Positions 8,086-23,725 of a stretch of DNA of 36,125 nucleotides are shown one piece after another. The number at the start of each line of letters is the position of its first letter. The stretch's first letter is position 1. The notes under the pieces are model-generated. The model made no database searches and was not told the DNA's origin. It was given only the letters and a program-made list of their open reading frames with translations. Both the position numbers and the translations under genes were made by a program. This DNA comes from Gammaproteobacteria bacterium. GTDB taxonomy: Bacteria > Pseudomonadota > Gammaproteobacteria > Enterobacterales > Alteromonadaceae. The stretch is from assembly GCA_018820995.1 (NCBI GenBank), contig JAHJNE010000258.1:1-36125 (forward strand), in the 5' to 3' direction.

Positions 8086-8337
8086 TTAGAGATCTTTATC
8101 ATCTTTGTGCAGAAAAATTTCAGTAAAGCCAAAGCGGATAAACTCTTTTTGCCGGTAATCTTTAATCGCCGCAGTACGTTTAGCCGTCATCGCCACTTGT
8201 TGTTCCATTTTTAAGAATTGCGTTAAATCAATTCCTTCAGCCGCTGCAACTGCCTCATAAATATCATGAAACTTATCGTAACTAAATGGGATTTGCCGCG
8301 GCTGCCCTTTAAATTTGTAGGTAATAGCACGTGCCAT
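8086..8337 (-). CDS. DUF2960 family small protein
   Basis: 83-aa cytoplasmic protein matching the DUF2960 family I know from Vibrio and Shewanella-type genomes; function unknown. The start MARAITYKFKGQPRQIPFSYDKFHDIYEAVA is typical. It is basic and mixed-charge, with no signal peptide or membrane segment. The ATG overlaps the stop of the upstream acyltransferase by one base (TAATG), so translation is coupled. It ends facing the DUF192 gene. Confidence 0.8.
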   Translation of the reverse strand: MARAITYKFKGQPRQIPFSYDKFHDIYEAVAAAEGIDLTQFLKMEQQVAMTAKRTAAIKDYRQKEFIRFGFTEIFLHKDDKDL

Positions 8338-9470
8338 TAGAGCTGCTCCTTACTACGATTCGCATTTAACAAAGGATTGGCATACATCTGACATAACACC
8401 GGCCGAATTTGTTCAGGCACTGCCGCAAGACGACGTTTAAACTGCTCAACCGTACTGTCTTTTTCATCAAGTGCTGCGGGTTGATTGGCTGCGAGATAAT
8501 TCGCTGGATATAACCGATAGCCTTGGTATATTTCCCGATCAATAGCAGCAGCCATGGTTTCAGGGCTGATCAGATCTTCTGCTTTATCAACAACAGCACC
8601 AAAATGAACATGCACCCGGCCTTTTTCACCAATAATGCCCTGGACAATACTTTGAATATCTTCAAATTCAGCTTTTTGGTAGTTGCCTTGGGTCTGACGT
8701 TGATATAACTCCTGCGCTTTGGCTAAGTCACAGGGATCAAATTCATAAGACAGGCACACAGGAACGATTTGCAATGAAGCCATATAATCAGGAAAATTGA
8801 TTTGTTGTTGTTTGCCCGCAATATAAAACATTTTCAGGATAGCTGGGTCCGTAACGTCGTTACCGTCTTTGGCCCGCCCCTCTTTTTGAGCGATCCAGAT
8901 ATGATTGTGAGTAGTCAGCGAATGCCGGATGTAAGCGGATAACTGTCCCAGCGCTTTAAGCATTTCCCGTGGACCTTTCGCTGAACGTTTGACGATGAAA
9001 CTTTTATTCAGCTTCATCAATTCAGTGACGCAGGTCTTTTTCAATAAGTTGTCACCAATCGCAATGCGCGCGGTCGTAAAACCATGCTGGTGCAAACACC
9101 AGTTCACTAACGACGGATCCATCGCAATGTCGCGATGATTCGACACAAATAAATAAGATTTGTTGGGATCAAGCGCAGCCAAACCGCTGCAAGTCACACC
9201 TTGAGTAGTCCGTTTTAAAGTGTTTTCCAAATAGCCTGAGACATAACGTTGCACTGATTCAACGCTCTGGAAGCCTGACCAGTGCCGCCGTAAGTACCAA
9301 GTGAGCATAGGAGCCGCGATAGCGGTCAACCAAGACGCAGAGCTACCAAATCGAAAACGGATCACCGCCTGGATAAACTCTGGATCAGCAATAACGCGCT
9401 GCACAGCGGCAGGCACTTCAGCGTCGTTATAAGGACGGATATCGTCAAAATTTTCGGTTACTTCAGTCAC
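8337..9470 (-). CDS. 1-acyl-glycerol-3-phosphate-type acyltransferase
   Basis: Probable phospholipid or glycerolipid acyltransferase of the PlsC/PF01553 superfamily. The conserved block FVSNHRDIAMDP is near residue 110; downstream KRSAKGPREM and IWIAQKEGRAKDG resemble acyltransferase blocks II and III. The His-Asp motif reads H-RDIAM-D, one residue longer than the standard HX4D, so either HRD is the working pair or this is a subfamily variant. The track start is TTG at 9488. The GTG at 9470 has AAAGG eight bases upstream and gives 377 aa, so I prefer it. No obvious transmembrane anchor is seen beyond a hydrophobic patch near residue 50. Exact substrate unknown. It is coupled to the DUF2960 gene downstream. 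Confidence 0.8.
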   Translation of the reverse strand: MTEVTENFDDIRPYNDAEVPAAVQRVIADPEFIQAVIRFRFGSSASWLTAIAAPMLTWYLRRHWSGFQSVESVQRYVSGYLENTLKRTTQGVTCSGLAALDPNKSYLFVSNHRDIAMDPSLVNWCLHQHGFTTARIAIGDNLLKKTCVTELMKLNKSFIVKRSAKGPREMLKALGQLSAYIRHSLTTHNHIWIAQKEGRAKDGNDVTDPAILKMFYIAGKQQQINFPDYMASLQIVPVCLSYEFDPCDLAKAQELYQRQTQGNYQKAEFEDIQSIVQGIIGEKGRVHVHFGAVVDKAEDLISPETMAAAIDREIYQGYRLYPANYLAANQPAALDEKDSTVEQFKRRLAAVPEQIRPVLCQMYANPLLNANRSKEQL

Positions 9471-9586
9471 ACTTGAGGCCTTTATCAAATCAACCGGGCT
9501 ATTTTTACTGATTAACAGCTAACTGCCTAGCAGAATCGACGAATTAGCCGCAAAAACACCGAATCGAACGATGAACTCAGACCAGA

Positions 9587-16383: not shown

Positions 16384-16407
16384 CAAAATGGCCCGTAGGC
16401 CATTTTG
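16384..16407 (-). terminator. Rho-independent terminator of the YCF48-MMPL gene pair
   Basis: A perfect 10-bp inverted repeat CAAAATGGCC / GGCCATTTTG with a 4-nt loop lies 53 bp after the MMPL stop; on the minus strand TTATTT follows. The rest of the 257-bp gap to gdh (16203-16459) shows no other gene; the gdh promoter must lie there but I could not pick out a convincing one. Confidence 0.75.
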
Positions 16408-16459: not shown

Positions 16460-18778
16460 TTAACGGTTTTTTCGCCAGAAAAATGCGGCAAGTGCTGGCA
16501 ATACGAACACGGCACCGAGCATATTGACGATAAACATGAACGTCAGCAGGATCCCCATATCAACCTGAAATTTCAACGCTGAAAAGACCCAGGTACTGAC
16601 ACCAATCGCCAACGTAATCGCAGTAAACAGCACTGCACTGCCCGTTGACTTCAGCGCATTGTAATAAGCTTCACGCAGTGGCACACCATCGCGCAGCGGT
16701 TGCGTCATATTGGTCAGGATATAAATACCATAATCGACACCAATTCCCACGCCAAGCGCGATAACAGGTAAGGTCGATACGGTCAAACCAATATCAAGTA
16801 AAGTCATTAACGCGGTTGCTAACACAGTGACAATATACAGCGGCAGAATGACCGCCATCGTAGCGCGCAGTGAACGGAAACTAATTAAACACAATAAAAT
16901 CACAGCGCCATAGACGTACATTGTCATTGGGGTCTGCGCAGCAGCTACAGCTTCGTTCGTGGCAGCCATCACCCCTACCGGGCCTGATGCAAGCATAAAC
17001 TTGGTGGTATCAGTGCCAAGCTCGGCACCTATTTTTTTCGCTGCAGCGACAACTTTTTCAATGGTTTCGGCTTTGTGATCGTTTAAAAACAAGATCACTG
17101 GCATTACTGAACAATCTCCATTGAGCAATCCCGTGCTGGTCTCAACCCGCGACGAAGACTGCACCAAAGATTCTGTGGTTCTTGGTAAAATCCGCCACTT
17201 CACATTGCCTTCATTAAAGGCCGCATTAATTGTTTTTGATACGGACGGCAGTGACACAGCACTTTGCACGCCTGGCACATTTTCCATTCGCCATTGGAAC
17301 TGATCGATCTTGTCCATAATAGGATGAAAGGTGCAGCCATTGGCATCGGTTTCAACCATCACATTAATGTAGTCGACGGAGATTGCGTAGCGATCTGTGA
17401 TTAAAAACGTATCCTGGTTATAACGGGAATCTTCATGCAGCGATGATGCGCCCGGATGCAAATCACCAATTTTCAATTTTTGACTTTGGTAATAACCTCC
17501 GGCAAATAACACCGCAGCCACCAATAAAATCACAGCGGCCATTTTCGGTTCAGCACTGGCCGATAGCGCCCGCCAGAATTTATCTGCTTTTGGCGTGGGT
17601 GCGGAGACGGCTTTGACGTAAGAAGGCTTGAACCGGACAAATGACATCAATACCGGCAATAGGAATAAGTTGGTTAGAATGATCACGCCAACCCCCAAAC
17701 TTGCCGTTATAGCAAGTTCGCGGATAACCCCTATTTCAATAATTAACAACGTGATAAAACCAACGGTGTCTGACAACAATGCCACTCCACCCGGAATTAA
17801 CAAACGCCGGAAACTGGCTTGCGCCGCTGTTTTAGCATCCAATCCGGTGGCCACATTTTTGCCAGTGGCATTGATCATCTGCACGCCGTGGCTCACACCA
17901 ATAGCAAACACTAAAAACGGCACCAATATCGACATTGGATCGATACCAAAACCCAACAAAGTCAAAAGACCCATCTGCCAGATCACCGCAATCAGCGAAC
18001 AGGCAATAGGTAAAATTGTTAACGTCAGCGATTTAGAAAATAAGTACACCATCACGGTGGTGATGACGATAGCTAACGCGAAAAATGCCAATACACCTTT
18101 GGCACCATCGGCAACATCACCGACCATTTTGGCAAAACCAATAATATGCACCGACACTTGGTCGTTTTCGTATTGTCCACGGACATCTGTTTCAAGTTGA
18201 TTGGCAAAAGCGATGGTGTCGAGTTTTTCATTGGTATCAGGGTTAATTTCCTGCAATTGCGCCGTCACCATGGCGCAGCTGTAATCATCGGCAACCATCC
18301 GGCCAACAATGCCAGCCTTGTCTACGTTCTGCTTGACGATAGCCAAACCATTGGCATCGGGTGCAAAGTCAGCGGGGATCACCGGGCCACCGGCAAAACC
18401 ATCTTCCACCACTTCAACAAAACGGGTACTTGGACTGAATAACGATTTAACCAACACCCGATCCACACCCGGCATGTAATACACCTGGTCATGAATTTTT
18501 TTGAAGGTATCAAAAAACTGTGGGTTAAAAATATCACCAGACGCATCACAGACCGAAATCAGAATATTGTTTGCGCCGCCAAAATCTTTGGCGTGCTTTA
18601 AATATGTCTGCATATATTCATGTTTTAACGGAATATTTTTGGTAAAAGCAGCATCGAGTTTGATCTGACTGGCTTTAAATAACAAAAACAAGGTCATTGC
18701 GAAAAATGCCAGGATCACCACAGCACGGTGACGAAACAGCGCATATTCGCATTTGTTGATAAAACGACTGGTACTCAT
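16460..18778 (-). CDS. MMPL/RND-family inner-membrane transporter
   Basis: Secondary transporter of the RND superfamily, MMPL branch, probably proton-driven and moving a hydrophobic cargo. 772 aa. Topology is a duplicated RND half: TM1 near residues 18-36, a periplasmic loop of about 190 residues, TM2-6 (about 225-380), TM7 near 415, a second periplasmic loop, then TM8-12 (about 620-765). The C-terminal half keeps the proton-relay type motif GVGIGVDYGIY, while the equivalent N-terminal position reads AIGVSHGVQ, without Asp-Tyr. The ATG overlaps the YCF48 stop (ATGA), so the two are coupled. It is last in the DUF1302-DUF1329-YCF48-MMPL cluster. No membrane-fusion protein or TolC partner is nearby, unlike drug-efflux RND pumps. 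Substrate unknown. Confidence 0.87.
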   Translation of the reverse strand: MSTSRFINKCEYALFRHRAVVILAFFAMTLFLLFKASQIKLDAAFTKNIPLKHEYMQTYLKHAKDFGGANNILISVCDASGDIFNPQFFDTFKKIHDQVYYMPGVDRVLVKSLFSPSTRFVEVVEDGFAGGPVIPADFAPDANGLAIVKQNVDKAGIVGRMVADDYSCAMVTAQLQEINPDTNEKLDTIAFANQLETDVRGQYENDQVSVHIIGFAKMVGDVADGAKGVLAFFALAIVITTVMVYLFSKSLTLTILPIACSLIAVIWQMGLLTLLGFGIDPMSILVPFLVFAIGVSHGVQMINATGKNVATGLDAKTAAQASFRRLLIPGGVALLSDTVGFITLLIIEIGVIRELAITASLGVGVIILTNLFLLPVLMSFVRFKPSYVKAVSAPTPKADKFWRALSASAEPKMAAVILLVAAVLFAGGYYQSQKLKIGDLHPGASSLHEDSRYNQDTFLITDRYAISVDYINVMVETDANGCTFHPIMDKIDQFQWRMENVPGVQSAVSLPSVSKTINAAFNEGNVKWRILPRTTESLVQSSSRVETSTGLLNGDCSVMPVILFLNDHKAETIEKVVAAAKKIGAELGTDTTKFMLASGPVGVMAATNEAVAAAQTPMTMYVYGAVILLCLISFRSLRATMAVILPLYIVTVLATALMTLLDIGLTVSTLPVIALGVGIGVDYGIYILTNMTQPLRDGVPLREAYYNALKSTGSAVLFTAITLAIGVSTWVFSALKFQVDMGILLTFMFIVNMLGAVFVLPALAAFFWRKNR

Positions 18779-19806
18779 AAGGCTTTAGTTTCTTTTATCT
18801 GAACGGTTTTAATTCCGGCTTCTGTTGCCAGTACCAATTGGTCTGCAATCACCACCGCATTTAAAATGGCTTTGCCATCTTGTTGATGCAACGAGCTAAA
18901 TGTCAGACCGTCATCATCGCTGATTAATAAAGTGCCGGCATTACCCAGCAAATACACCCGACCATTCGGTCCGTTGATCACACTATTTAAGGTCGAAGGT
19001 GACGGAACAGCGATTTGTTGCCAGCTTTGGCCTTGGTCAGTACTGCGAAAAACATGACCACGCAGACCCACCGCAATTAAGCTCAGAGCTTTAGTTCTGG
19101 TTATGCCAAACAATGAACCATTGTAAAACTCTGGCTGGCGTTGCCAACTTACGCCAAAGTCATTACTTTTCGCAAAAAATCCAGCCTCGCCAACCAGATA
19201 CAAGGTCGTACCGTCGGCATATAAGCGATTAAAATGCGGCAATACCGAGGACATTTCGACGGCAAAACCTTCTGGGTCGGTATCTTTTAACTCAGCCAGT
19301 AGTTGCTGATCGTCTTCGCTTGCCAATTCCAGATGGAACTCATTGTGCCAGGTTTTACCTGCATCATTAGTTCGATAAAACATGCCATAAGCGCCAACAG
19401 CAATCCCCTGTTGTGGGTCTTTAAAATAAATATCAAACAATGGCTTATCAAGCTCAGGTAAAAACTGCTGGATCTGCCAGCTCGCGCCGCCATCTTCGGT
19501 ATGCAAAATGCTGGCGTCATGGCCAACGGCCCAACCGTGGGTGGTATCCGCAAAATAAATTGAATTCAGATTTGATTGCAGCGGCACCGGCATTTGGTGC
19601 CAGTCCTGGCCGTCCAGGCTTTGTAAGATGTGGCCACGCTCGCCGGCGGCCATCCAGAATTTCGCGCCCACAGGAATAATATCGGTCAACACCGAATGAA
19701 CTGCGCGTGGTAATTGGTAGGCGGCCTGAGGTTGTGTTTGCGCCTGCAATGGCGATGGCATCAACACACAACAAAGACCTAATCTCGACAAAATTTTCGA
19801 CATCAT
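18775..19806 (-). CDS. YCF48/BNR-repeat beta-propeller protein, exported
   Basis: 343-aa periplasmic protein of the YCF48/Hcf136-like family; plant and cyanobacterial relatives assist photosystem II assembly, but in this context it is more likely an accessory factor for the neighbouring transporter. The N-terminus MMSKILSRLGLCCVLMPSPLQA is a signal peptide cleaved probably after LQA. At least five propeller blades with Asp-box motifs are visible: TEDGGASW, TNDAGKTW, SNDFGVSW, STDQGQSW, SDDDGLTF, each preceded by a variant of the AVGxxGxxxRT strand. The start is ATGATG at 19806 with a weak ribosome site. It is coupled to the MMPL gene by a 4-nt overlap and lies 77 bp after the DUF1329 gene, beyond a strong hairpin. 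Confidence 0.86.
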   Translation of the reverse strand: MMSKILSRLGLCCVLMPSPLQAQTQPQAAYQLPRAVHSVLTDIIPVGAKFWMAAGERGHILQSLDGQDWHQMPVPLQSNLNSIYFADTTHGWAVGHDASILHTEDGGASWQIQQFLPELDKPLFDIYFKDPQQGIAVGAYGMFYRTNDAGKTWHNEFHLELASEDDQQLLAELKDTDPEGFAVEMSSVLPHFNRLYADGTTLYLVGEAGFFAKSNDFGVSWQRQPEFYNGSLFGITRTKALSLIAVGLRGHVFRSTDQGQSWQQIAVPSPSTLNSVINGPNGRVYLLGNAGTLLISDDDGLTFSSLHQQDGKAILNAVVIADQLVLATEAGIKTVQIKETKAL

Positions 19807-19839
19807 TAGAGCTAATACTCAAGGGTTAAACTGAAACAA

Positions 19840-19866
19840 AAACGGTTGGCACCAAGCCAACCGTTT
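19840..19866 (-). terminator. Strong terminator hairpin inside the envelope cluster
   Basis: An 11-bp perfect inverted repeat AAACGGTTGGC / GCCAACCGTTT with a 5-nt loop lies 17 bp after the DUF1329 stop; on the minus strand it continues as TTGTTT, with five T in a row counting the stem end. It separates the DUF1302-DUF1329 pair from the YCF48-MMPL pair. Only 33 bp remain between it and the YCF48 start, too little for a full promoter, so partial readthrough is likely. Confidence 0.85.
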
Positions 19867-19883
19867 GTTACCGACCAATCTGA

Positions 19884-21245
19884 TTAACGGGTACCTTCCC
19901 GACGCAGAGCCGCCGGAGTGAAGTCGTTGTCAGATAATTTCACTGAGAAATCATACATTTTGTCTTCATTATCCAGACCAATCGCAATATAACGGCGAGA
20001 GTTCAGATCATGATAAACCTCTAATGTACTCCAGTGAGTTGGCACTTCGTAATAGTTCAGACCATGTGCGACGGCAACGCGGTATAACTCACCACGCGCA
20101 TCGTACAGATCAGCCACATGGATTTGCCAACTGTCTTCGTCAATGTAGAACACACGTTTGCCATATACATGGCGCATGCCAGTTTTTAACGTCGCTTCGA
20201 CCACCCAAACACGGTGTTTTTCCCAGCGAACGTAATCTGGATTAATATGACCGGCCGTTAACAGACTATCGTACTTGGTGTCTTTGCTATGCAACTTGTA
20301 GCTGTTGTAAGGGATCAACATTTCCTGTTTGCCTTTAAGCGACCAGTTGTATCGATCCGGAGAGCCGTTAAACATGTCGAAGTCATCAGTGGTACGCAGA
20401 CCATCAGATGCGGTACCTGGTGCATCGTAAGCCACGTTTGGCGCACGACGAACACGACGTTGACCAGTGTTATACGTCCAAGCCTGACGCGGCGTTTTTA
20501 CCTGATCCATCGTCTCGTGGACTAACAAAGCGGTCCCTGCCAGACGTGCTGGTGTCGTAACGCTTTGTTTAAACCGGAACAGAATGTTTTCCGCCTGTAA
20601 CGCTTCAGCAGTCGCACTTGGATCCGAATACTTAAACATGATCTCTTCGTTAAAGCCGATCAAGGTATACGCACCTGTTGCTGTCGGTGCAGCCTGACCA
20701 CCATTACGGCTGGCTGCAACACCGCGGAAGCGAACGATATGGTTCCAAACCGCTTCTAAACCGTTGGCTGGAATTGGAAATGGAATACCAATGGCTGCAT
20801 TGATAATCCCGTTTCCGCCTTGCACCAACTCGGCAGAGCCCGCAATTTTCTTCGTGGCATCATAAACATACTGCGGATATGACGCTGAACGATGTGTAGG
20901 ATACACATTCATTTTGTATGTTTCTGGGTACAGGTTAAACAAAGCCTGTTGACCTGGAGACAGCAACGTTTTGTATTGCTCCATATTGGCTTTATTGACT
21001 GTAAATACCACTTTATCTGCCGCGAACGGATCAGGATGGTGGTCACCTGGTTTATAACCCGCTGGTGCTGACGTAATACCGCCAGTCCATGCTGGAATAC
21101 TTCCGTCCTTATTGGCAGCTTTTTCAGCACCGAGTGGTGTCAAATCAACGCCAAGACGAGCAACCTGATCAGCAGGTAATTTGGCCATTGCGCCACAGCT
21201 CAGTACTAATGCAATGGCGGACGATAATAGGGTGAGTTTTTTCAT
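19884..21245 (-). CDS. DUF1329 family exported protein (LolB-like)
   Basis: 453-aa DUF1329 protein; as I recall, this family is related in fold to the LolA/LolB lipoprotein-sorting proteins, so it may shield a lipid-like cargo in the periplasm. The track starts at 21299, but the signal peptide MKKLTLLSSAIALVLSCGAMA starts at ATG 21245. Cleavage after AMA is likely; VLSC could also be read as a lipobox, making it a lipoprotein. Family signatures in the mature part are LGVDLTPLGAEKAANKDGSIPAWTGG, NMEQYKTLLSPGQQAL, HETMDQVKTPRQAWTYN, GQRRVRRAPNVAYD and DEDSWQIHVADLYD. It starts 16 bp after the DUF1302 stop, so both are on one transcript. Confidence 0.9.
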   Translation of the reverse strand: MKKLTLLSSAIALVLSCGAMAKLPADQVARLGVDLTPLGAEKAANKDGSIPAWTGGITSAPAGYKPGDHHPDPFAADKVVFTVNKANMEQYKTLLSPGQQALFNLYPETYKMNVYPTHRSASYPQYVYDATKKIAGSAELVQGGNGIINAAIGIPFPIPANGLEAVWNHIVRFRGVAASRNGGQAAPTATGAYTLIGFNEEIMFKYSDPSATAEALQAENILFRFKQSVTTPARLAGTALLVHETMDQVKTPRQAWTYNTGQRRVRRAPNVAYDAPGTASDGLRTTDDFDMFNGSPDRYNWSLKGKQEMLIPYNSYKLHSKDTKYDSLLTAGHINPDYVRWEKHRVWVVEATLKTGMRHVYGKRVFYIDEDSWQIHVADLYDARGELYRVAVAHGLNYYEVPTHWSTLEVYHDLNSRRYIAIGLDNEDKMYDFSVKLSDNDFTPAALRREGTR

Positions 21246-21261
21246 AAGACTATCTCGTCCC

Positions 21262-23409
21262 TTATAGTGAGTATTTAATGTTAAAAGACACAAAATCACG
21301 GTCTTCAGTATTGTTCGTCGTCCCTACACCACCGAAAAAGGCGTTGTATGAAACTTCTGCTGACCATTGGCTCAGATAATCAAAAGCTAAACTATAGCTC
21401 AGTGATTTTTTGTCTTCAGTAAACATAAACAATGGATCTGGTGTAATACCGTTTACGTCATGCGCAAACACCAGACGTTGCGTCAGATTGACGCCCGCCA
21501 TAATGTTGTTGTAATTCGCAATAGCGACCAAACGATAACCCCAGGCCGAAGCTGTCGGGAACGGGTTGGTCTCAGCGCCATCAGACACACCTGTGTGTAA
21601 GCCGGTTTTTGAAATCAGAGGACCACCCACACCGTTGGTACCGTAAAGTGGATATCCGCTACGATCCGTGTTCGGGCCATTCAGTCTTAACACATCCTGA
21701 TCAGGCATATCTTTGATTTTAATGCCGCCAATTTCCGCCAATAACGTGAAATTGTCGGTATTGAGTACCGGACCAAACAAATGAGTAATCGTCACCTGCG
21801 CTTGCGTGGTATCTGCCAAAATGTAGCCTTGCGCAAATTGGCCAGGCTGAACTTTGTTATTGTCGAAACGACCAATTTGAGAAATACCCGCTAAATCAGG
21901 ACGAAGACCCGCAATGGCGAGTTGTTCTGGCATGCCAGCATACAAAATTTCAACGTCATCAATTTGCAGCGGTTCATCTTGGCGGAAAGCCAATTCACCG
22001 GCAATTGAAGTGCCTTCTAAAGTGGTGTTAAAGCTAAAACCGTACAGCTTAATGTCTTCCGGGTATTCAATTAGCCCTTTTGACATCGCTTTTAAACTAG
22101 ACACGTTTTCTTTGGTGATATTACCGGCATTGGCCGCTAAGAAACCAATATCAGCCTGAATAGCTGCAGTACGGAAATCTGATGCGATACCAGAAATCAC
22201 CGGTGTACGGCTATGATAATTCATGTGGTACAAAGCGAATTCGGTGTCGTTCAGATCTGGAGAGAAGTACTCTAACTTCAGACCATATTGACCACCGTCG
22301 TCCGGTTCGATTTCACCAGCATCACCATAAGGACGCAAAGTCACTTTGGTCGGATATGCCAGATAAGCTTGAGACAGTTGACCAAGCGCTGTTTGTGCGG
22401 CTTGTTTCGCTGCTGCCGGCGCATTCGGATTTGCCAATACCGCACTTGCTGCGGCAACACTGCTACCAATGCCATTAAGGCCAGCTAACAACGTCGATAA
22501 ATCAATATCCGGGTTACCTGCAAAACCTAACTGAATGTTCTGAGCATAACCGCCTTTACCGGCAAAGTCGTTGGTGGAGAAGTATGAGCCAGGTACAGGT
22601 AAGTAACTGTTTTTCCACTCGTATTGGTAAAATATTTCAGCAGAAAGTTGTTCGGTGATGCCTAAAGATGCAGTGAACATCCCAACTGGGATATACGCTT
22701 CTTTTAAATCTGCACCTGGTAAACGGGCAATACCGACATCGATAGGCGTGATGTTAATACCATGCTGGATTAAGGTACTTTCACCCCAACTTAACACCTG
22801 ATTACCTAAACGAAGTGATAACGGGTTAGCGCCATCATTTAATGCAAAGTTCGCGAAGATATAAGCGTCGAGTAAACGGATATCACGGCAGGCTAAATCC
22901 CTGGCATCATCATCCGCGCAAGGGTCAACATGATTGCCTGAAACCGGATTGGTGTAAGCGCCTTTGTCATCCATCAACGCCGAGTCATAGAAATACATAA
23001 ACCGGGTAAACAGACCAAAATCGCCTTTGGTAATGGATAACTCGTGAGTGCCTTTAAACAACTCAGAGAATTTATCGCCTTTGTCATAATTCAGGTTACC
23101 GGCATCACCATTTGACGAGTAGCTACCAGGATTCTTCCAGATTTCAGACGATGGATAAATGTTATTGGTCGCGGCATTGTAGCCAGTCCAGTTAAATCTT
23201 GGATGATTAACTTTACTGATGGTATCCCAATTCCGATCTTCAGTGCGGTAGCTGGCACCATAAGAAAAGCTTGAGTCGAATACAACTTCAACGTCGTCGC
23301 CAATTGTAAAATTGGCCGCTTGGATTGATGTTGCAGACAAGGCTAACAGCGCAGACGCGACGCCTATTGCTAAAGAACTTTTAGCAAAGGCAAATGGTCT
23401 TTTGTTCAT
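21262..23409 (-). CDS. DUF1302 family outer-membrane protein
   Basis: Predicted outer-membrane beta-barrel of the DUF1302 family, probably a channel or receptor for a hydrophobic compound. The track starts at 23472, but ATG 23409 has a strong ribosome site (GGGGGGAG) and begins a signal peptide MNKRPFAFAKSSLAIGVASA with cleavage after SIQA; this gives 715 aa. The mature protein opens with ANFTIGDDVEVVFDSSFSYGASYR, a typical first strand of the family, has LRLGNQVLSWGESTL, alternating hydrophobic-polar strands, and ends DFVSFNIKYSL as a barrel-closing strand. An Ala-rich insert (about LAGLNGIGSSVAAASAVLAN) looks like a loop or plug helix. It is the first gene of the cluster, with a 316-bp upstream region. 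Confidence 0.88.
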   Translation of the reverse strand: MNKRPFAFAKSSLAIGVASALLALSATSIQAANFTIGDDVEVVFDSSFSYGASYRTEDRNWDTISKVNHPRFNWTGYNAATNNIYPSSEIWKNPGSYSSNGDAGNLNYDKGDKFSELFKGTHELSITKGDFGLFTRFMYFYDSALMDDKGAYTNPVSGNHVDPCADDDARDLACRDIRLLDAYIFANFALNDGANPLSLRLGNQVLSWGESTLIQHGINITPIDVGIARLPGADLKEAYIPVGMFTASLGITEQLSAEIFYQYEWKNSYLPVPGSYFSTNDFAGKGGYAQNIQLGFAGNPDIDLSTLLAGLNGIGSSVAAASAVLANPNAPAAAKQAAQTALGQLSQAYLAYPTKVTLRPYGDAGEIEPDDGGQYGLKLEYFSPDLNDTEFALYHMNYHSRTPVISGIASDFRTAAIQADIGFLAANAGNITKENVSSLKAMSKGLIEYPEDIKLYGFSFNTTLEGTSIAGELAFRQDEPLQIDDVEILYAGMPEQLAIAGLRPDLAGISQIGRFDNNKVQPGQFAQGYILADTTQAQVTITHLFGPVLNTDNFTLLAEIGGIKIKDMPDQDVLRLNGPNTDRSGYPLYGTNGVGGPLISKTGLHTGVSDGAETNPFPTASAWGYRLVAIANYNNIMAGVNLTQRLVFAHDVNGITPDPLFMFTEDKKSLSYSLAFDYLSQWSAEVSYNAFFGGVGTTNNTEDRDFVSFNIKYSL

Positions 23410-23725
23410 CTTGTGATCTCCCCCCTGTCCCTGCAGGTATATTTTGTTTTTGTAATGAATGGGTGATTTCAACTGCTCTGATCTCTACCCACTTAATTAA
23501 AATAATTACATCATTTTCTAATGGGCGCAAGGCTTGGTTTGCCGTAAATCTGTTGATTTGGCTTTAGTTTTTTCGGCAAGTGTCGTGTTCAGCTTGTTTC
23601 CTGTTGCTGTTAAGTTTAACTACATTTTGCTATCTGCCAAATTAATCATCTAACCTAATGAAAATTAACAGCAAATAACATAAAAATGTCACACCCGTTT
23701 TAATCTACCGTTTAAAGCATATACT
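23410..23725 (-). promoter_or_regulatory. Upstream region of the DUF1302 cluster (no gene)
   Basis: This AT-rich 316-bp gap lies between the DUF2835 stop and DUF1302. A weak promoter candidate on minus is TTGGCA (plus 23635-23640) with TAAACT (plus 23613-23618), 16 bp apart. The near-perfect dyad GTTAAGTTTAAC (23609-23620) overlaps that -10 and could be an operator. No clear terminator for pepN-DUF2835 is seen and no conserved ORF. Confidence 0.35.

Follow-up and report, generated by a model that had tools for sequence, protein, structure and literature searches.

The 36,125-nucleotide stretch of gammaproteobacterial DNA analysed here (the window) carries a four-gene cassette that lies on the chromosome and, judged by gene content, gene order and family assignments, belongs to the AmeABCD-type HAE3 RND systems. 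Taken jointly, the evidence is best read, with a probability of roughly 0.55, as a chromosomal AmeABCD-type export route with separable AB and CD parts, which would serve a core envelope function in Rheinheimera and not a degradation pathway. The four-gene system is not new, because it was described experimentally in 2018 (PMC6394551), has been seen in aromatic regulons (PMC6449761) and has been co-folded for Pseudomonas putida (PMC10866462). The present analysis adds the co-occurrence of the genes, the pepN locus, the S-H-x-x-Q motif in TM4 of the pump, the hairpin between B and C, and the predicted folds of A and B.

The four-gene cassette and its relatives

All four open reading frames lie within 16460-23409 on the minus strand and are transcribed in the order A, B, C, D. 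Gene A (21262..23409) encodes a DUF1302 outer-membrane protein of 715 aa (PF06980, 6e-156), B (19884..21245) an exported DUF1329 protein of 453 aa with a predicted LolA fold (PF07044, 4e-160), C (18775..19806) an exported YCF48/BNR-type beta-propeller of 343 aa (PF14870, 9e-24), and D (16460..18778) an MMPL/HAE3-type RND inner-membrane pump of 772 aa (PF03176, 6e-23). The mechanical reading frame of B begins at 21299, and the ATG at 21245 opens a normal signal peptide. Both A and B carry hydrophobic N-terminal segments, a probable signal peptide was recognised in C by inspection, and D contains many membrane segments. With gaps of 16 bp between A and B and 77 bp between B and C, and a 4 bp overlap of C with D, transcription as a single operon is likely. 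Besides PF07044, B matches PF17131 and not PF03548 (LolA). D scores 172 bits against the HAE3 model, below that model's cut-off of 351.9, and 61.5 bits against the HpnN model TIGR03480 (cut-off 751.85), and in a tree it groups with the pumps of plasmid cassettes. The nearest named genomes are those of Rheinheimera, with 91% identity in D. The fastest-diverging gene is C, with ~59-64% identity to some Rheinheimera-group loci (L042, L043 and L060) at which A, B and D keep ~80-88%.

By sequence search alone, neither A nor B had a relative of solved structure. AlphaFold2 models, for which 60 and 64 homologues were supplied, reached a pLDDT of 90.8 and a pTM of 0.85 for A, and 90.2 and 0.90 for B. 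The A model is a porin-type barrel, in which 18 long strands were counted, with an N-terminal signal peptide; its closest solved structures are OccAB, OprD-type and AlgE barrels, and as their TM-scores are modest (~0.5 of target), the model assigns A to the barrel class only. In Delftia, mass spectrometry detected a DUF1302 protein in the outer membrane (PMC3110197). The B model, which has a LolA-like fold, matches LolA3 (9tp6, 0.84), 3bk5 (0.76) and the DUF1329 structure 4z48 (0.71), with TM-scores normalised to target. Likely fold classes are now given to both DUF1302 and DUF1329.

These co-oriented genes are conserved as a unit, with one predicted product per envelope layer. The first-pass annotation had named the same four families, and all reading frames and Pfam matches were confirmed; its placement of one product in each layer is supported by Pfam and the predicted structures and agrees with the AmeABCD work, its LolA-like view of DUF1329 by the LolA3 match, and the trans-envelope route for a hydrophobic molecule that it proposed fits the families and folds and the AmeABCD papers. 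It had also reported no membrane-fusion or TolC-like gene, and none was seen among the genes of the window.

The AmeABCD system of Castellaniella defragrans comprises a DUF1302 protein (A), a DUF1329 protein with LolA similarity (B), a COG4447 protein (C) and an HAE3 pump (D), families and order identical to those of the window cassette, and the conserved gene content and order were already noted by its authors (PMC6394551). Its deletion resulted in poorer growth on unfunctionalised monoterpenes, lower monoterpene tolerance and raised Nile Red accumulation in de-energised cells (PMC6394551). AmeABCD resides in a monoterpene island, whereas in the window pepN and an NAD-glutamate dehydrogenase gene (NAD-GDH) flank the cassette, which has no catabolic neighbours. 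Four-gene sets also occur in aromatic regulons of Betaproteobacteria, for which a role in solvent stress was proposed (PMC6449761), and a related set is found in a benzene-culture island (PMC13101534). In P. putida, two split pairs, PP_0765/PP_0766 and PP_2018/PP_2019, are needed for growth on Tween 20; their products, which act together, likewise comprise DUF1302 and DUF1329 proteins, a periplasmic protein and an RND-type transporter, with predicted contacts that are strong for C-D and weak for B-A and B-D (PMC10866462). In P. putida, AB and CD occupy separate loci, whereas the genes of the window form one locus. Thalassolituus TOL_3187/TOL_3188 resembles the window in linking an RND pump to a LolA-like domain beside a porin-like protein, but there the pump and the LolA-like domain are fused, and the system is induced on n-C28 alkane and described without a propeller (PMC6304351). 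HpnN and MmpL3 are, like D, MMPL-type RND pumps, acting on lipids; they differ in that no single cassette provides them with dedicated genes for a barrel, a LolA-like and a propeller partner, and D has Ser-His in place of the TM4 acid. The pumps of HAE1 tripartite efflux systems (AcrAB-TolC type) are ~1040 aa long, compared with 772 aa for D, and the genes for their membrane-fusion and TolC partners are absent from the window. In Lol sorting, LolA belongs to PF03548, and the window has a separate, genuine lolA gene at 2172-2786.

Inheritance of the cassette and its pepN-linked locus

In a phylum-wide sample of 150 genomes, among the matches listed, the genomes with DUF1329 (E up to 1e-15) were the same 16 as those with cassette-type D (>500 bits), and strong DUF1302 occurred in those 16 and one more, a raw count that ignores shared ancestry. 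Again among the matches listed for this sample, 55 of 57 DUF1302 genes adjoined a DUF1329 gene, and only 22 of 31 D genes lay near one; AB pairs also far outnumber pumps in several genomes, among the matches listed. AB and CD are proposed to be separable modules. Scattering of the genes in relatives, named earlier as the observation that would speak against a common route, was not found: A-B-C-D stand in order at 65 of 80 named loci, and most exceptions are cut contigs. Methylibium, Aromatoleum and Vibrio plasmids retain the gene content in a shuffled order. Cassettes carried on plasmids, some of them in a different order, are usually found next to catabolic genes, and this speaks for a functional unit over a merely inherited order. 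Neighbour families of the cassettes outside pepN loci are only mildly enriched (UvrA, lipase and beta-oxidation genes).

The surroundings of the window copy consist of rarA, lolA, ftsK, lrp, ald, DUF192, an acyltransferase gene, zapC, pyrD, NAD-GDH (assigned by inspection and synteny), pepN, nhaC, an SNF symporter gene, prc, proQ, and GAF, SIMPL and M1 peptidase genes. With such housekeeping neighbours, the earlier statement that the window contains no catabolic gene holds, none having been found among the cassette neighbours within it. The suggested association with hydrophobic-compound metabolism does not apply to this locus. On the whole, the first-pass interpretation stands as regards the layers, the LolA likeness and the route, but it missed the AmeABCD precedent, and its catabolic link is inapplicable here. 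The window copy is conserved, and its neighbourhood is housekeeping, not catabolic.

Strong DUF1329 matches were present in all 24 relatives sampled from the window's family, in addition to the window's own genome. The order pepN-A-B-C-D-NAD-GDH recurs in Rheinheimera, Arsukibacterium, Alteromonas, Pseudoalteromonas, Colwellia, Shewanella and Ferrimonas, and in family f20; pepN-A-B-C-D is found in Pseudomonas and family f22, pepN-B-C-D in family f27, and pepN-C-D at two Pseudomonas-type loci (L148 and L186). PP_2017 is presumably the pepN gene of P. putida. In the tree of D, an unrooted tree made by a quick method with SH-aLRT support only, pepN-linked pumps fall mainly into two groups, one of the Alteromonadales type that includes the window and one with Pseudomonas, beside which the aromatic plasmid pumps nest. 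Positional conservation at pepN and this tree are best explained, although not proven, by an ancestral shared pepN-linked locus from which catabolic copies would have been mobilised. Many bacteria of sea and soil share this fixed housekeeping neighbourhood, which suggests a general task in handling lipids or solvents over a special degradation pathway.

Several variants were observed in addition. Wenzhouxiangella-type cassettes (L117, L141 and L142) contain two consecutive DUF1329 genes, as A-B-B-C-D or B-B-C-D. The window's genome also holds a parallel set (L041, G000:C492:1-8383) of TetR, an HAE3 MMPL pump with the TM4 acid, a LolA_like protein (PF17131) and a protein of 574 aa that matches no Pfam family and has an outer-membrane-barrel-like end; this set includes no propeller. 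In another phylum-level relative, an HAE3 pump gene overlaps a gene for a 429 aa DUF1302-like barrel (L163 191-3774), and several such HAE3-barrel pairs occur in family f36. A homologue of the window's acyltransferase (8337-9488) lies directly upstream of a DUF1329 gene in genome G061 (L193 7862-10755), the only genome with such a homologue beside a copy of B. A 1174 aa frame of D in genome G070 was considered as a C-D fusion and rejected as an upstream-frame artefact, its extra N-terminus being Arg-rich and matching no C or B model. No relative of D was found in viral contigs.

Pump signature, internal hairpin and probable promoter

Two motifs mark the cassette pumps: S296-H297-x-x-Q300 in TM4 (codons at 17879..17893, minus strand) and D682-Y683-x-x-Y686 in TM10 (16721..16735, minus strand), each invariant in 107 of 107 aligned pumps of the lineage, which were retrieved with patterns excluding the TM4 stretch. 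Thirty HAE3 loci served as controls. The reading frame of one was unusable, and two with S-H-x-x-Q belong to the cassette lineage; in the remaining 27, the column of H297 holds Asp or Glu 25 times, His once and Asn once. By this comparison, the cassette lineage has a replacement for the TM4 acid that HAE3 pumps elsewhere typically carry, and the proton relay of D may be altered.

A terminator- or attenuator-like hairpin with a T tail lies between B and C (19840..19866, minus strand), 33 bases before the start of C. Such a hairpin followed by T-rich sequence is present at 43 of 57 pepN-linked loci, compared with a shuffle mean of ~0.05, and at 9 of 42 other cassettes; at the A|B and C|D junctions of pepN-linked loci, none was found (0/55 and 0/60). 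Its stems vary between genera with the pairing kept, as in CGGTTGGC/GCCAACCG and GGGGCGC/GCGCCCC. A further hairpin after D (16384..16407), terminator-like on both strands and the probable transcript end, has counterparts at 38 of 49 loci. The B|C hairpin is probably an internal attenuator that makes AB more abundant than CD, with read-through setting CD below AB, and it fits the view of AB and CD as separable modules.

Upstream of A lies a conserved promoter-like block, the probable cassette promoter, with AAGCCTTGC ... ATGATGTAAT (23505..23535, minus strand), and just upstream of it the palindrome AAATCAACAGATTT (23546..23559, minus strand), which is conserved in Rheinheimera, Arsukibacterium (one base changed) and Alkalimonas. 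One more exact copy of AAATCAACAGATTT occurs in the window's genome (G000:C201:1078-1091), without a clear link, and the AAATC-N4-GATTT pattern gave no clear regulon there (9 relaxed matches, compared with 5 for the reversed control pattern). At nine Alteromonas-clade loci, AACTGGTACGATTWGTT or a near variant stands ahead of the promoter block, a site that we take to resemble the FadR operator consensus of E. coli. Single-locus shuffle tests of this site ranged from 0 to 13 per 100, so that its support comes from conservation. Each of the 18 genomes checked has FadR, most fadE promoters of the Alteromonas clade carry CTGGTCNGACC, and one further exact FadR-like match in genome G024 lies just before a gene read from its N-terminal sequence as ETF-ubiquinone oxidoreductase. 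The FadR-like operator is absent from the window's own promoter, where AAATCAACAGATTT fills the slot. Together, the Alteromonas-clade operator and the P. putida phenotype on Tween 20 point to an acyl-type cargo.

Direction, cargo and biological meaning

In the export reading, an acyl or apolar molecule would be moved by proton-driven transport: D would extract the cargo, the C propeller on the periplasmic side of D would act as an adaptor coupling it onward, B would shield the cargo in its LolA-type fold and carry it across the periplasm, and the 18-strand barrel A would release it as the outer-membrane exit. If B is a mobile carrier and A a channel, with fewer pumps to serve them, an excess of AB over CD would be expected.

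The opposite direction is a doubtful though considered alternative, in which A would admit long-chain fatty acids, esters or hydrocarbons, B would carry them inward and the RND pump would deliver them to the inner membrane, as in the direction of NPC1. RND/MMPL pumps of known direction are mostly exporters, which counts against import. The Tween 20 requirement of the P. putida members fits uptake as well as export (PMC10866462), but it could also reflect tolerance to released fatty acid; induction of an RND-LolA fusion and a porin on n-C28 alkane (PMC6304351) and the operator shared by Alteromonas-clade cassettes and fadE promoters are likewise compatible with import. A is nearest to OprD/Occ uptake channels, a match that is weak and general to barrels, and dye accumulation rose rather than fell after AmeABCD deletion (PMC6394551). 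A net outward direction is slightly favoured in our analysis.

A broad pump for tolerance of solvents and hydrophobes, with no specific endogenous cargo, appears unlikely. It would account for the tolerance phenotype of AmeABCD (PMC6394551), the solvent-stress response proposed for the four-gene sets of aromatic regulons (PMC6449761) and the many unrelated catabolic genes that plasmid copies adjoin, but the presence of the system at a fixed place in 24 of 24 sampled family genomes suggests an endogenous role. That the cassette sorts outer-membrane proteins or lipoproteins, with B as a second LolA, is very improbable: the predicted fold of B would suit such a device, but the window already has its own lolA, the cassette includes no LolCDE-type ABC partner, and B is paired with a barrel instead of LolB.

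Beyond the export reading, we tentatively consider a wider and still speculative picture, in which an ancient, core gammaproteobacterial system at pepN, with Ser-His at the TM4 proton site, would move an endogenous acyl or fatty-acid-like molecule between the membranes, the catabolic AmeABCD systems would be mobilised copies, and AB pairs would be interchangeable front parts served by a common CD engine. The passage of hydrophobic molecules across the Gram-negative periplasm is a poorly understood process, and the present analysis assigns a pump that has received little study to the core genome of common bacteria of marine and soil habitats, with four testable molecular features: the TM4 Ser-His, the probable AB|CD attenuator, the pepN linkage and the excess of AB modules over pumps.
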